Origin: a virus
DNA length: 36,192 nucleotides
Virus record (IMG/VR): IMGVR_UViG_3300047393_000050
Location: 1-36,192 of that record
Strand: one strand, 5' to 3'
The stretch's first letter is position 1; the number at the start of each line of letters is the position of its first letter. Below are positions 4,039 to 14,425 of the stretch, piece by piece. The notes beneath the pieces are model-generated. The model saw nothing but the letters and a program-made list of their open reading frames with translations. It was not told the DNA's origin and searched no databases. The position numbers were made by a program, and so were the translations under genes.

Positions 4039-4199
4039 AAATCATTGCTATTGAGCTAAAAAATGGCATTGTAAGAAAGAAATATATGCAATTAGATGAA
4101 TGGCTTCACTTTCATAAAAACAAGCGAAAAAAAGGCTTTCAGTACATTGCTTACAAGAAAGGTTTTTCTCAATTTAAAATTACAAACGAAAAAAAATGA
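4026..4199 (+). CDS. Small basic hypothetical protein, 57 aa
   Basis: ATG at 4026 lies inside the end of ninG in another frame, and the TGA is at 4197-4199. The product (MEEIEIIAIELKNGIVRKKY...) is acidic at the start, then strongly basic, with many aromatic residues. No domain recognised. It is the last gene of the ninG operon, before a 175-bp non-coding segment. Overlapping starts are the rule in this genome, which supports it. Confidence 0.6.
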   Translation: MEEIEIIAIELKNGIVRKKYMQLDEWLHFHKNKRKKGFQYIAYKKGFSQFKITNEKK

Positions 4200-4230
4200 T
4201 AAAAAAATTTTTTTATTTAATAAATATTTT

Positions 4231-4256
4231 TAATTTAGCGGAGTAATTTAGTGAGA
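4231..4256 (+). promoter_or_regulatory. Tandem 13-bp repeat with a promoter-like box
   Basis: TAATTTAGCGGAG (4231-4243) is followed directly by TAATTTAGTGAGA (4244-4256), 10 of 13 bases identical. TAATTTAG differs from TAnnTTTG by one base. If the first copy is a -7 element, transcription would start near 4243-4246, just before the first arm of the structured RNA. The -33 position (4208-4211) reads TTTT, so the promoter is weak or needs an activator. It could equally be a protein-binding repeat. Confidence 0.4.
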
Positions 4257-4334
4257 TTTATTACGATTAGAAAATATTATAAAAATCCGATATGGAAACC
4301 TAAATCTCACAATAAGGCGACCGTATCGGATTTT
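4251..4334 (+). ncRNA. Predicted H-type pseudoknot RNA (two interleaved long stems)
   Basis: Stem 1 is GTGAGATTTA (4251-4260) with TAAATCTCAC (4301-4310), a perfect 10 bp. Stem 2 is AAAATCCGATATGG (4282-4295) with CCGTATCGGATTTT (4321-4334), 14 bp with one G-U pair. The arms alternate (1, 2, 1', 2'), which is the H-type pseudoknot topology, with loops of 21, 5 and 10 nt. The segment holds no supported gene and lies 41 bp before the ATG at 4375, at the head of the replication-gene operon. It could be a 5'-leader regulator, a free small RNA, or two overlapping DNA dyads at an origin. The pairings are read directly from the sequence; the function is not known. Confidence 0.75.
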
Positions 4335-4374
4335 AAATTTAATAGTTATTGGTAATCTTTAAACCATTATAAAT

Positions 4375-4596
4375 ATGGCAAATGTCAAATTAATTTTTCA
4401 CGAAAAAGGAACTGAAAAACAATTGCAATGTTATGCTAATAATTTTAATGAAATATACATTGAAATTTTAGATAATGATTATGAAAATAGTTATAATATT
4501 CAAAGCATTTCATTAGATAAAAATACTGCAATTAGATTAGTTCGTGAATTAAAAAAACAAATTGGATTTTTAGAAAGTGAGGTACAAAATGGCTGA
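4375..4596 (+). CDS. Hypothetical protein, 73 aa, first gene after the pseudoknot
   Basis: ATG at 4375 to TGA at 4594-4596. The strand-rich start (MANVKLIFHEKG) and the C-terminal helix (TAIRLVRELKKQIGFLESE) suggest a small alpha/beta protein. No family recognised. Its stop overlaps the ATG of the DUF6291-like gene by 8 bp, so the two are coupled. If the upstream RNA is a cis-regulator, this is the first gene it would control. Confidence 0.65.
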   Translation: MANVKLIFHEKGTEKQLQCYANNFNEIYIEILDNDYENSYNIQSISLDKNTAIRLVRELKKQIGFLESEVQNG

Positions 4597-5350
4597 AAAT
4601 AAAAAATCATTTGTTTTATATTCTGATAATAAATCAATCATTGATTTACTTTCCAATGAACAAGCTGGATTACTTCTTAAAACATTATTCAAATACGTAA
4701 ATGATGAAAATCCAGAAATAGACCAATCTATTGCAATAGTTTTTGAAGTTATTAAATTACAATTGAAACGCGATTTAATAAAATGGGAACATACAAAAGA
4801 AAGTCGTTCTATTGCTGGTAAAGCATCTGCAGAAGCTAAAAGATTAGCTAAATTAAAAGAACAAAAATTAACAAATTCAACAAATGTTGATTTTGTAGAA
4901 CAAAGCTCAACAAAATCAACTGTAAGTGTTAATGTAAGTGTAAGTGATAGTGTAAGTGATAATGTTATAAATGAAGAAAATAATAATACGGCTTCGCCTT
5001 TTTCTTTTTTTAATTCTTTAATCGCTTATGGATTTGATAAAAAATTAGTTTCCGATTGGATTAAAGTACGTAAAACTAAAAAAGCTACAAATACAGAAAC
5101 TTCATTTAAAAGTTTTATAAATGAAATTGAAAAAAGAAATTGTAATTTGAATCAAATTTTAGAATTCATTATTGTAAAAAATTGGAGCGGATTCAAATGG
5201 AGTTGGTATGATGCTGAATTTCAAAAAGAAAAAAGTTCCGCCAAAAAAGAAAGTGAGTCAATTGTTGCTGGAAGACAAACCGCTTCAACTATCCAACAAA
5301 ATTTAGATGCTACTGGACTTTATGTTCCAAGCCAACAAAACAATCTTTAA
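4589..5350 (+). CDS. DUF6291-like phage replication-region protein
   Basis: 253 aa from the ATG at 4589; an in-frame GTG at 4577 is less likely. Residues 1-70 follow the DUF6291 pattern: KKSFVLYSDN, LLSNEQAGLLLKTLFKYVND, IVFEVIKLQLKRDLIKW, and the charged RSIAGKASAEAKR segment. A Ser/Val repeat linker (TVSVNVSVSDSVSDNV, encoded around 4918-4965) leads to a C-terminal block with SDWIKVRKTKKATN and WSGFKWSWY, similar to the tails of phage DnaD-like replication proteins that bind DNA or a helicase loader. A role in initiation is inferred from this and from its position; no helicase or polymerase is encoded. Confidence 0.65.
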   Translation: MAENKKSFVLYSDNKSIIDLLSNEQAGLLLKTLFKYVNDENPEIDQSIAIVFEVIKLQLKRDLIKWEHTKESRSIAGKASAEAKRLAKLKEQKLTNSTNVDFVEQSSTKSTVSVNVSVSDSVSDNVINEENNNTASPFSFFNSLIAYGFDKKLVSDWIKVRKTKKATNTETSFKSFINEIEKRNCNLNQILEFIIVKNWSGFKWSWYDAEFQKEKSSAKKESESIVAGRQTASTIQQNLDATGLYVPSQQNNL

Positions 5351-6199: not shown

Positions 6200-6577
6200 A
6201 TGAACAACGAAAAATCAGATAAAAATATGTTAGTATTGTTGGAAGCAATTATTCTTATCCAGCTATTATTAGAAAACTTGGAGGAACTTCAAGGAACGCA
6301 TTACAATAAACAAAGACTCAAACAACAAATGAATTCTTTAATTAAAGAACTTGAACCATTAGCTGAAAGGGATTACAATGTTGTTTTCAATAATGGTCAA
6401 GAAGAAACAATTAAAATTGCAAATGAATATTCTAAAATGGTAAAATTCATTTCCCTTCAAAAATTACCTTCAAAAGTTGCTCTCACACAAATTGTTGAAG
6501 CTTGGAATATAGACCACGAAATAATAGAAGCGACCGTTCATAGAATAAATAATAAAAAAAAGAATAATGGAAAATAA
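6200..6577 (+). CDS. Hypothetical helical protein, 125 aa
   Basis: ATG at 6200 to TAA at 6575-6577. The N-terminal part is a leucine/isoleucine-rich helix (LVLLEAIILIQLLLENLEEL) followed by basic and acidic helices and a lysine-rich tail. It is amphipathic and not clearly a membrane segment, since acidic residues interrupt it. The end overlaps the PP-loop gene by 11 bp. No family recognised. Confidence 0.6.
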   Translation: MNNEKSDKNMLVLLEAIILIQLLLENLEELQGTHYNKQRLKQQMNSLIKELEPLAERDYNVVFNNGQEETIKIANEYSKMVKFISLQKLPSKVALTQIVEAWNIDHEIIEATVHRINNKKKNNGK

Positions 6578-7421
6578 GATTATAGCTTGGTGGTCAGGAG
6601 GAATAACTTCAGCAGTTACTTGCAAAATTTGTATTGACATATTTGGATTAGAAAATATAAGATTTATTTTTATAGATACTAAAAATGAAGATGAAGATAC
6701 ATATCGTTTTAAAACTGATTGTGAAAAATGGTATGGTAAAGAAATTGAAATAATAACTGGTCTTGGAAATAAATATAATTCAATTCAAGATGTTTGGGTA
6801 AAACACAAATCTTTAAACGTTGCAAATGGCGCTATTTGTTCTGGAGAATTAAAAAAACAAGTTCGATTAAAATGGCAAAAAAATAATGTATTCAAATACC
6901 AAGCATTTGGCTTTGAATTAGACGAATTTAAAAGAGCAAAATCTATGACTTTAAATAATCCAGATGCAAAAGCAATATATCCATTATTACTTTATGGATA
7001 TAGTAAAAAGGATTGCATTAAAATAGTTCAAGATGCTGGATTAGAAGTTCCAAGAATGTATCAATTAGGTTTTTTAAATAATAATTGTTTTAATACTGGT
7101 TGCGTTCAAGGTGGTATAGGATATTGGCAAAAAATGAAAAGAGATTTTCCTTTAAAATTTGAAGCAATGGCTGAAATGGAACATAGATTAACTGACCTAA
7201 AAGGAATTCCAGTTACAATGCTAAAAGACCAGTCAAAAAATGGTGGATTAGTATTTTTAAAACCGCATCCAAATTATCCAGAAATAAAAAATATTGATTT
7301 AATGAAAGGTAGAGAGCCAGAACCATTATTTGAATGTAATGGATTTTGTGGAATAAATGATTTATCAGAAAGAAAAGATACAGAAAAAGAAATAAATTTT
7401 CAAACTGATTTATTTGATTAA
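6567..7421 (+). CDS. PP-loop (PAPS reductase-like) nucleotide alpha-hydrolase enzyme
   Basis: 284 aa. The PP-loop SGGITS (residues 10-15) sits after the first strand (IIAWW), as in adenylating enzymes of the PAPS reductase/ATP sulfurylase type. FIFIDTKNEDEDTY (34-46) matches the second strand and acidic turn. Cysteines at C91, C174, C179, C257 and C261 could hold an Fe-S cluster or carry sulfur. True CysH proteins end in a different Cys motif, so assimilatory sulfate reduction is unlikely. Similar phage proteins may thiolate or otherwise modify nucleic acids, but the substrate is unknown. It overlaps the preceding gene by 11 bp. Confidence 0.75.
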   Translation: MENKIIAWWSGGITSAVTCKICIDIFGLENIRFIFIDTKNEDEDTYRFKTDCEKWYGKEIEIITGLGNKYNSIQDVWVKHKSLNVANGAICSGELKKQVRLKWQKNNVFKYQAFGFELDEFKRAKSMTLNNPDAKAIYPLLLYGYSKKDCIKIVQDAGLEVPRMYQLGFLNNNCFNTGCVQGGIGYWQKMKRDFPLKFEAMAEMEHRLTDLKGIPVTMLKDQSKNGGLVFLKPHPNYPEIKNIDLMKGREPEPLFECNGFCGINDLSERKDTEKEINFQTDLFD

Positions 7422-7767: not shown

Positions 7768-7999
7768 AATTGAGTCACAATTGATTTCTTATAAAAGATA
7801 TTTGAAATTTTGCCCAGAAGAAGCACTCGGAAAGCTTTGTATTGAAATTGCCAAACTGGAACACAGAATGGAAACAATACGAAATATGAGTATAGACCAA
7901 TTAAATAGTCAAGTACCTTGGCAATATTCAGTCAGACAAAGTAAAGCCAATAAATTAAGTCCAGATACAATTTACGAATTCAAATTAAATAAGATATGA
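7742..7999 (+). CDS. Hypothetical protein, 85 aa
   Basis: ATG at 7742, overlapping the previous gene by 26 bp; TGA at 7997-7999, overlapping the next ATG by 4 bp. It is mostly helical and charged (residues about 10-50, with LGKLCIEIAKLEHRMETIR). No recognised domain and no membrane segment. It is real mainly because of tight packing and the absence of another plausible frame here. Confidence 0.55.
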   Translation: MKVIAHRNRIESQLISYKRYLKFCPEEALGKLCIEIAKLEHRMETIRNMSIDQLNSQVPWQYSVRQSKANKLSPDTIYEFKLNKI

Positions 8000-8220
8000 C
8001 AGCAATAGAATGGTTAGTAGATAAATTAAATAATGATTTTGGAAATAATGATTTTTTAATTAGTTACGCAAATGAAATTAGCCAAGCAAAAGAAATGGAA
8101 AAAGAACAAATTGAAGATGCTTTTTGTGATGGGGTAGATGATGAATATGAATACCATATAAATAATAGTCTAAGAAAAAATTCAGAACAATACTATAACG
8201 AAAAATTTAAAAAGAAATAA
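7996..8220 (+). CDS. Hypothetical acidic protein, 74 aa
   Basis: ATG at 7996 overlaps the preceding stop (ATGA). The N-terminal half (MTAIEWLVDKLNND) matches a widespread class of short phage proteins that begin with a TAxEWL helix and contain an acidic CDGVDDEYEYHI-like middle, usually of unknown role. The C-terminus is Asn/Lys-rich. Function unknown. Confidence 0.6.
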   Translation: MTAIEWLVDKLNNDFGNNDFLISYANEISQAKEMEKEQIEDAFCDGVDDEYEYHINNSLRKNSEQYYNEKFKKK

Positions 8221-13720: not shown

Positions 13721-14425
13721 ATGAAAATTTTTTTAATGTATTACGATAGGTACGAAAATGCAACAACTTCTAAACTTTTAAATAGAGAGCATGTTGTATT
13801 GTGCCACGATAATAAAGAAAAATTCAAATGTATTGGCTCAAAAGGAACTTTAATTGAAACAAAAGAACCGAAAGGAATACAAAACAATTTCAATTATGGT
13901 CTTTCTATGCTTGAAAAAGACGAATGGGGAATCTTTATGAGTGATGATTGTATAGGGGCAAAAAAAATTGTAAATGGTAAGTTTGTAAAATGTGAAACTG
14001 ATTACCCTATTGAAGAATTAATTTCTATATTGCCTAAATGCGATAAAATGGGAATAAAACTTGTTGGATTGAATTCAACTGGAAATTCATTATACGCAAA
14101 AAATAAATACTCTAAATTTGGTCTTGTTGACGGTAGGTGTTTTGCTATTAAAAAAACTGAATTTAGATTTCACGAAGAAATTAATACAATTCCTGATTAT
14201 TATTCAACAGCTTATCATTTGAAAAAATACGGTGGTAATTTAATTTTAAATTACACTTTTTTAGATTTTAAAAGATATGAAAAAGGGGGTTTGGGTTCAA
14301 TTTCAGACAGAATAAATGATAAATTAAAAGACGTAAAAATTATGTTGAATTTATTTCCAGAAAATGTAACCTTGAAAGATAAGCCAAATGAACCAAAAAA
14401 TAGCCACATAGTAATAAAAAGGTAA
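13721..14425 (+). CDS. Glycosyltransferase-like protein, probable TET-associated (TAGT) type
   Basis: 234 aa. A GT-A-like layout is visible: an N-terminal strand (MKIFLMYYDRYENATTSKLL), a second strand VVLCHDN, the metal-site candidate IFMSDD (D75-D76), an acceptor-loop region (LVDGRCFAIKKTEFRFHEEI) and PDYYSTAYHLKKYGG, which resembles the catalytic-base helix. It starts 3 bp after the ParB-like gene and ends 2 bp before a TET/JBP oxygenase. That pairing is the known context of TET-associated glycosyltransferases, which add sugar to hydroxymethylated bases in phage DNA. Sugar donor and target base cannot be read from the sequence. Confidence 0.65.
   Translation: MKIFLMYYDRYENATTSKLLNREHVVLCHDNKEKFKCIGSKGTLIETKEPKGIQNNFNYGLSMLEKDEWGIFMSDDCIGAKKIVNGKFVKCETDYPIEELISILPKCDKMGIKLVGLNSTGNSLYAKNKYSKFGLVDGRCFAIKKTEFRFHEEINTIPDYYSTAYHLKKYGGNLILNYTFLDFKRYEKGGLGSISDRINDKLKDVKIMLNLFPENVTLKDKPNEPKNSHIVIKR

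Follow-up and report, generated by a model that had tools for sequence, protein, structure and literature searches.

Within the window, the whole 36,192-nucleotide (nt) stretch of viral DNA analyzed here (IMG/VR record IMGVR_UViG_3300047393_000050), we identified a structured element of ~100 nt at the head of a replication operon (Table 1). We give about an even chance to the reading that it represents a new family of phage 5' leader RNA, transcribed from its own promoter and gating replication/modification operons of Bacteroidota phages by (regulated) termination. The structure and position of the leader are well supported; its function is inferred, without expression data. Comparative sequence evidence shows that a hairpin A and a hairpin B/C form and that their apical loops make a kissing helix of ~7-9 bp. 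By its position, the RNA is placed after a TAnnTTTG box and ends in a stable hairpin with a U-rich tail, and an open reading frame (ORF) comes next without a second such box.

Table 1. Coordinates in the window of the leader RNA, its parts, and the features around it
Feature	Position	Strand	Basis or comment
Putative flavobacterial -7 promoter box, TAATTTAG (TAnnTTTG with one mismatch)	4231-4238	+	Read from sequence; weak in this phage
Whole kissing-loop leader RNA	4240-4340	+	Covariation; covariance model match; fold z-score -3.3
Hairpin A (GTAAT 4243-4247 with ATTAC 4260-4264)	4243-4264	+	Stem kept in relatives; changes on both sides in type II
Kiss strand K5, loop of hairpin A (partner 4302-4310)	4251-4259	+	Covariation in two alignments
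A-rich linker; AAAATATTATA conserved in type I	4265-4281	+	Alignment A3
Hairpin B (4282-4295 with 4321-4334; 14 bp, one G-U)	4282-4334	+	In A3, both sides changed at 10/14 pairs; -19.4 kcal/mol
Inner stem C (CCT 4299-4301 with AGG 4315-4317), closing the second kissing loop	4299-4317	+	Variation on both sides at 4/4 C pairs in A3 and 3/4 in A4
Kiss strand K3, apical loop of stem C	4302-4310	+	Covariation, as for K5
U-rich tail TTTTAAATT past the last G-C pairs of B	4331-4339	+	Weakly terminator-like here, U tract interrupted; stronger in most relatives
Conserved AGTTATNGGTNATCTNTAAACC motif with small inverted repeat GGT/ACC, ahead of start codon	4344-4365	+	One match in window, 0.02 expected
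73-aa ORF, first gene after leader	4375-4596	+	Family alignment; predicted beta4-alpha fold, AlphaFold2 pLDDT 84
DUF6291/primosomal or replication-initiation-like protein	4577-5350	+	Pfam DUF6291, E = 2e-19; PHROG 6451, E = 6e-27

A preliminary description of this DNA had reported two long complementary arm pairs that alternate along the strand. Both are present: a 10-bp pair (GTGAGATTTA at 4251-4260 with TAAATCTCAC at 4301-4310) and a 14-bp pair that includes one G-U (AAAATCCGATATGG at 4282-4295 with CCGTATCGGATTTT at 4321-4334). The accompanying judgment that chance pairing was unlikely was also borne out, as none of 3000 dinucleotide-preserving shuffles of 4251-4334 reached 24 interleaved pairs (the largest value was 20). 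The 10-mer and its complement have no further occurrence anywhere in the window. When the full architecture was scored, the window obtained 85.7, compared with a maximum of 67.5 in 1500 shuffles, and positions 4231-4340 scored 87.8 bits in a covariance model search, the window being among the model's own sequences.

Homologues altered how the arms are drawn. Because their comparison puts A4260/T4301 in hairpin A and stem C, the kiss comprises 9 bp (4251-4259 with 4302-4310), and the tenth pair of the shorter arm is reassigned. The element is also larger than the extent first given to it, 4251-4334; it spans about 4240-4340, with hairpin A, the inner stem C, and a terminator-like 3' end added. 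The proposal of a new pseudoknot RNA stands insofar as the RNA is interleaved and new, but in its fold two hairpins are joined by a loop-loop kiss, with an additional, third stem inside the second hairpin, and it is not a simple H-type pseudoknot. Both kiss segments lie within closed apical loops (those of hairpin A and stem C), so the pairing of a loop with a single-stranded flank that defines the H type is not met.

Using blastn, we matched the region at 66-68% identity in Muminvirus phages. With the 73-aa protein as bait, we also collected IMG/VR loci (16, then 63, partly overlapping), nearly all of which have two hairpins and interleaved pairing upstream of the gene despite differing primary sequence. 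Cultured or named carriers include Muminvirus filifjonk9-1 and relatives; Cellulophaga phages phi19:1, phi10:1, phi18:3, and phi19:3; Olleya phage Harreka_1; Flavobacterium phage 11b; and Elemovirus elemoC. A non-redundant set of 54 sequences (<88% alike) was assembled from metagenomic and cultured phages, and both hairpins and the kiss are maintained across it while the sequence varies. The internal loop between stems B and C is symmetric in 33 sequences, 28 of which allow a tandem G-A-type opposition, and the B/C hairpin has a mean of -18.9 kcal/mol over the relatives. For a few outliers, the type, the boundaries, or hairpin A are uncertain (hairpin A in L040, L143, and L065, for example); E-values from the covariance models, for which only part of the set served as input, are rough. 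Second model matches in regions L122, L124, L209, L211, and L212 were weak and failed the kiss test, and they were rejected. We found no convincing element in Riemerella phage RAP44 or in one human-gut phage with a DUF6291-like gene, and the combined model found none in one distant Clostridia MAG obtained with the 73-aa protein as query. The 73-aa protein had no match in plasmids.

The covariance check suggested at the outset, a search of related phages for compensatory changes in both stems, yielded homologues of exactly this kind. Covariation was evaluated in two MAFFT alignments of 11 sequences each, A3 for type I and A4 for type II (the two loop classes described below). Pairing was retained in 93.9% of cells in A3 and 93.3% in A4, and changes on both sides were present at 22 of 33 pairs and 19 of 27 pairs, respectively. 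For the kiss, 100% of cells were paired in both alignments, with compensatory changes at six of the eight kiss pairs in each. None of 500 shuffles equalled these measures, save for further pair types in A4, a weaker measure that was equalled by 19 of 500; sliding the partners by one column caused all covariation signal to collapse. A4 was trimmed to start at hairpin A, and both sets were picked by recognizable structure, so the pairing percentages lean toward structure; the double changes are not a product of that choice. Among the 54 sequences there are 47 distinct K5 strands, and when the K5 of one sequence is set against the K3 of another, only 51% of positions pair (pairing with its own K3 is complete by construction).

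Within stems A, B, and C, G-T oppositions outnumber A-C oppositions by 43 to 3. Such an excess is what an RNA of the + strand would be expected to show; the count is somewhat biased, since G-T was allowed when the helices were defined. An origin with overlapping dyads, which had been offered initially as one possibility, is disfavored by this strand asymmetry, and we rejected DNA dyads or origin palindromes as the main reading of the element.

The kissing loops occur in two classes, although some sequences lie outside both. In type I, which includes the window and Muminvirus, the kiss in loop A is preceded by mostly 2 (1-3) nt and followed by 0 nt, and that in loop C is preceded by 0-1 nt and followed by 3-5 nt. 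In type II, which includes phi18:3, phi19:1, and many contigs, 0-1 nt precede the kiss and 5-7 nt follow it in loop A, and mostly 1-2 nt precede and 0 nt follow it in loop C. The same two asymmetric loop geometries are thus exchanged between hairpins A and C; the strand GTGAGACG, for example, belongs to loop A in type I and to loop C in type II. Such a swap would be permitted by a symmetric loop-loop complex, and it suggests that conservation acts on the complex itself.

TAnnTTTG is the consensus sigma-A -7 box of flavobacteria (PMC9723704), and 47 of the 54 relatives have an exact copy ahead of hairpin A at a short, rather uniform distance (0-16 nt). At the other end of the element, the 8 nt that follow the final G/C of B contain at least four T in 50 of 54 relatives. 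In the other four, with B as annotated, no clear U tract comes straight after it, and three of these (L068, L076, and L078) form one related group. The criterion for an intrinsic terminator, a stable hairpin followed by a U tract, is met in relatives and weak in the window, and termination itself is inferred; a consensus terminator scan of the window called none because its loop limit is 8 nt. In the 35 loci of the 73-aa family, the distance from the tail to the start codon is 37-55 nt, and TAnnTTTG occurs in this interval in none of them. The start codon lies roughly 10-15 nt past the tail in L003, L155, and L208; across relatives, an ORF starts within about 10-55 nt after the leader. The AGTTATNGGTNATCTNTAAACC motif between the RNA and the start codon is similar in many relatives, and others have another small inverted repeat in its place. 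On the upstream side, a 57-aa ORF ends at 4199, and a perfect 18-nt A/T palindrome (4199-4216) just ahead of the leader may belong to the end of that gene.

Downstream, the element is flanked in the window by the 73-aa ORF; in L009, L083, and L084, the RNA and the 73-aa gene are separated by a small ORF. The 73-aa protein, the first gene product in many of these phages, has no match in Pfam or PHROG. Its best PDB match is a bacterial Pur-alpha (E = 0.01, TM 0.57-0.59), with weaker matches to PC4-like and MRP proteins. Pur-alpha is a nucleic-acid-binding fold, and the predicted structure raises the possibility that the 73-aa protein may bind single-stranded nucleic acid or the leader; it is a candidate partner only. 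The next gene encodes a protein with a Pfam DUF6291 match (Table 1), which agrees with the initial placement of the element at the head of a DUF6291-like replication operon; the same leader also precedes non-homologous replication genes. Shortly behind the replication genes, the window encodes a PAPS-reductase-like protein (6567-7421; phrog_424, E = 2e-50). A weak PHROG match to beta-glucosyl-HMC-alpha-glucosyltransferase (13721-14425; E = 5e-5) might point to modified phage DNA.

To find leaders without reference to any protein, we ran two DNA pattern scans of IMG/VR that used only the kiss half-sites and adjoining stem letters. These scans returned 46 contigs, nearly all with a promoter box upstream and an ORF just downstream where sequence was available. 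The downstream genes encode the 73-aa family with DUF6291, a DnaD-like helicase loader, a DEAD-box helicase, Prim-Pol proteins, a DNA methyltransferase, endonuclease VII/HNH proteins, and DUF1376/DUF7833 proteins. We had considered the leader as a companion of one protein family, and this was rejected because the kiss-pattern scans match so many other downstream genes. Four contigs carry a second copy with a different kiss sequence, each copy heading a different ORF: L003 (1816-1899 and 4374-4465), L034/L123, L139 (ahead of an HNH-like gene), and L207/L208 (ahead of a GIY-YIG-like gene); these gene identities were read from the sequence, without a profile search. Given the varied downstream genes, the second copies, and the lack of TAnnTTTG before the start codon, the RNA is most simply a 5' leader and not one family's companion. 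Leader copies before HNH, endonuclease VII-like, or GIY-YIG-like genes were seen in L208 (320-408), L139 (about 7996-8096, minus strand), L151, and L155; it is as if the endonuclease genes had been inserted behind, or were travelling with, this promoter and leader.

The genes behind the leader also bear on whether the RNA acts elsewhere. The element could be an independent small RNA that acts in trans and has a promoter and terminator to itself, with the downstream genes reached by partial readthrough; a compact RNA with a 5'-end hairpin and a terminator-like 3' end would fit this. However, in practically all relatives for which sequence is available, the next ORF starts only tens of nt farther on, the second copies precede other ORFs, and kiss strands that vary freely are ill suited to pair with a fixed target; we consider this explanation improbable. 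Still less probable is an origin or primer RNA, whereby the transcript or its 3' end would start phage DNA synthesis beside the replication genes. The element nearly always heads replication genes of several unrelated kinds, as such a role might have it, yet second copies precede HNH and GIY-YIG-like genes and other ORFs. There is also no GC-skew switch at the element in the window, which is a weak test, as nearly all genes run one way.

Gating of transcription into the operon is the most likely function, inferred from the leader's own promoter, its clamped terminator-like end, and the replication operon directly behind it. We infer that RNA polymerase would transcribe hairpin A, then the linker, and then the loop of C, at which point the kiss with loop A could form before stem B closes. 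A clamped, knotted hairpin would then stand behind the polymerase on its arrival at the U-rich tail, and the folded leader would set the share of polymerases that terminate versus those that continue into the replication genes. This share would perhaps be adjusted by a factor from the phage or the host, although no ligand or partner has been identified. The kiss, by forming ahead of stem B, may thus affect how often the polymerase pauses or terminates; alternatively, the folded RNA may offer a platform to the polymerase or to a protein. In the window, the mismatch in the -7 box and the interrupted U tract count against gating, and there are no transcript or termination data.

A classical antiterminator switch is unsupported. 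When the region upstream was compared with the 5' arm of stem B, competing pairing was found in 2% of the 54 sequences (p <= 0.05 versus shuffles), and no conserved alternative helix competes with stem B. The lack of such a helix also fits a leader that acts on the polymerase as does the put RNA of phage HK022: once folded, that nascent RNA attaches to the elongating enzyme, which then resists terminators and pauses farther downstream. The put RNA (putL/putR) is about 70 nt long with two stem-loops, putL lies just downstream of the early promoter PL, and the RNA both suppresses termination and binds RNA polymerase at its beta' zinc-binding domain (PMC9378689). The leader satisfies the same basic description, with two hairpins at the extreme 5' end of phage operon transcripts near a promoter; like put, it would act in cis on phage gene operons, requires no dedicated protein, and occurs in up to two copies per genome. 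However, put has a triple helix in stem I and no reported kissing loops, the put paper making no mention of kissing (PMC9378689), whereas the leader has a kissing helix, an inner stem C, a terminator-like tail, and Bacteroidota hosts, and there are no RNA polymerase-binding data for it. In 50 of 54 relatives, stem B leads straight into a terminator-like U tract, for which a processive antiterminator has no need, and we view a put-like function as unlikely.

Control by an antisense RNA, either at an attenuator as in plasmid pT181 or as an immunity RNA as in phages P4 and P1 (CI/C4 RNA), would draw on a different set of resemblances. The terminator-like hairpin of the leader, placed immediately ahead of replication genes, together with kissing loops of many mutually orthogonal sequences, recalls pT181 logic (PMC4878617). 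In the leader, however, the kissing takes place within one RNA, no antiterminator helix was found, and no antisense promoter is evident, in that TAnnTTTG on the antisense strand occurs in 1 of 35 loci inside the RNA and in 1 of 35 downstream (this promoter type only). Lysogeny genes are reportedly missing from the mumin-, pippi-, and tantphages (PMC7077304), and carriers of the leader include phages without such genes. We regard antisense or immunity control as very improbable. The rivals that remain possible are, in order, the put-like antiterminator, the trans-acting small RNA, and the primer or origin RNA.

The P4 CI and P1 C4 RNAs (Rfam RF01695, c4) are structured phage RNAs tied to phage gene control. 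The leader shares with them its nature as a structured phage RNA; it differs in having no match to any Rfam family, c4 included, and in the carriers without lysogeny genes. At the gathering threshold, a search of Rfam 15 (4227 families) returned no matches in the window and 16 loci, and no matches up to E = 1 were obtained in eight excised homologues, in keeping with the earlier remark that no riboswitch could be identified. Below threshold, only chance-level matches occurred around the element (SAM-II at 14.5 bits versus 44, upstream of the element). 6S-Flavo, Flavo-1, SAM-II long loops, and other Bacteroidetes Rfam families have the host phylum in common with the leader, which matches none of them. 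A search of the open literature found no description of the leader, although one relevant structured-RNA survey was outside its scope. We rate the leader as a new RNA family, absent from the Rfam release searched, within the known kind of phage cis-acting structured leader RNA.

A further-reaching interpretation, which we hold only tentatively and consider rather doubtful, is that phages of Bacteroidota share a self-contained RNA device through which otherwise unrelated replication modules are entered. The kissing clamp of this device, with its two asymmetric loop geometries exchangeable between the hairpins, would tune the polymerase directly without an alternative antiterminator fold, by a mechanism absent from known riboswitches, attenuators, and put elements.

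By trading loop geometries, the two hairpins provide a natural experiment on the construction of kissing complexes, and the presence of the leader in cultured phages makes it directly testable. The occurrence of the same leader at the promoter of replication operons with non-homologous proteins points to a shared, previously unnoticed gene-control step in phages of a major bacterial phylum.
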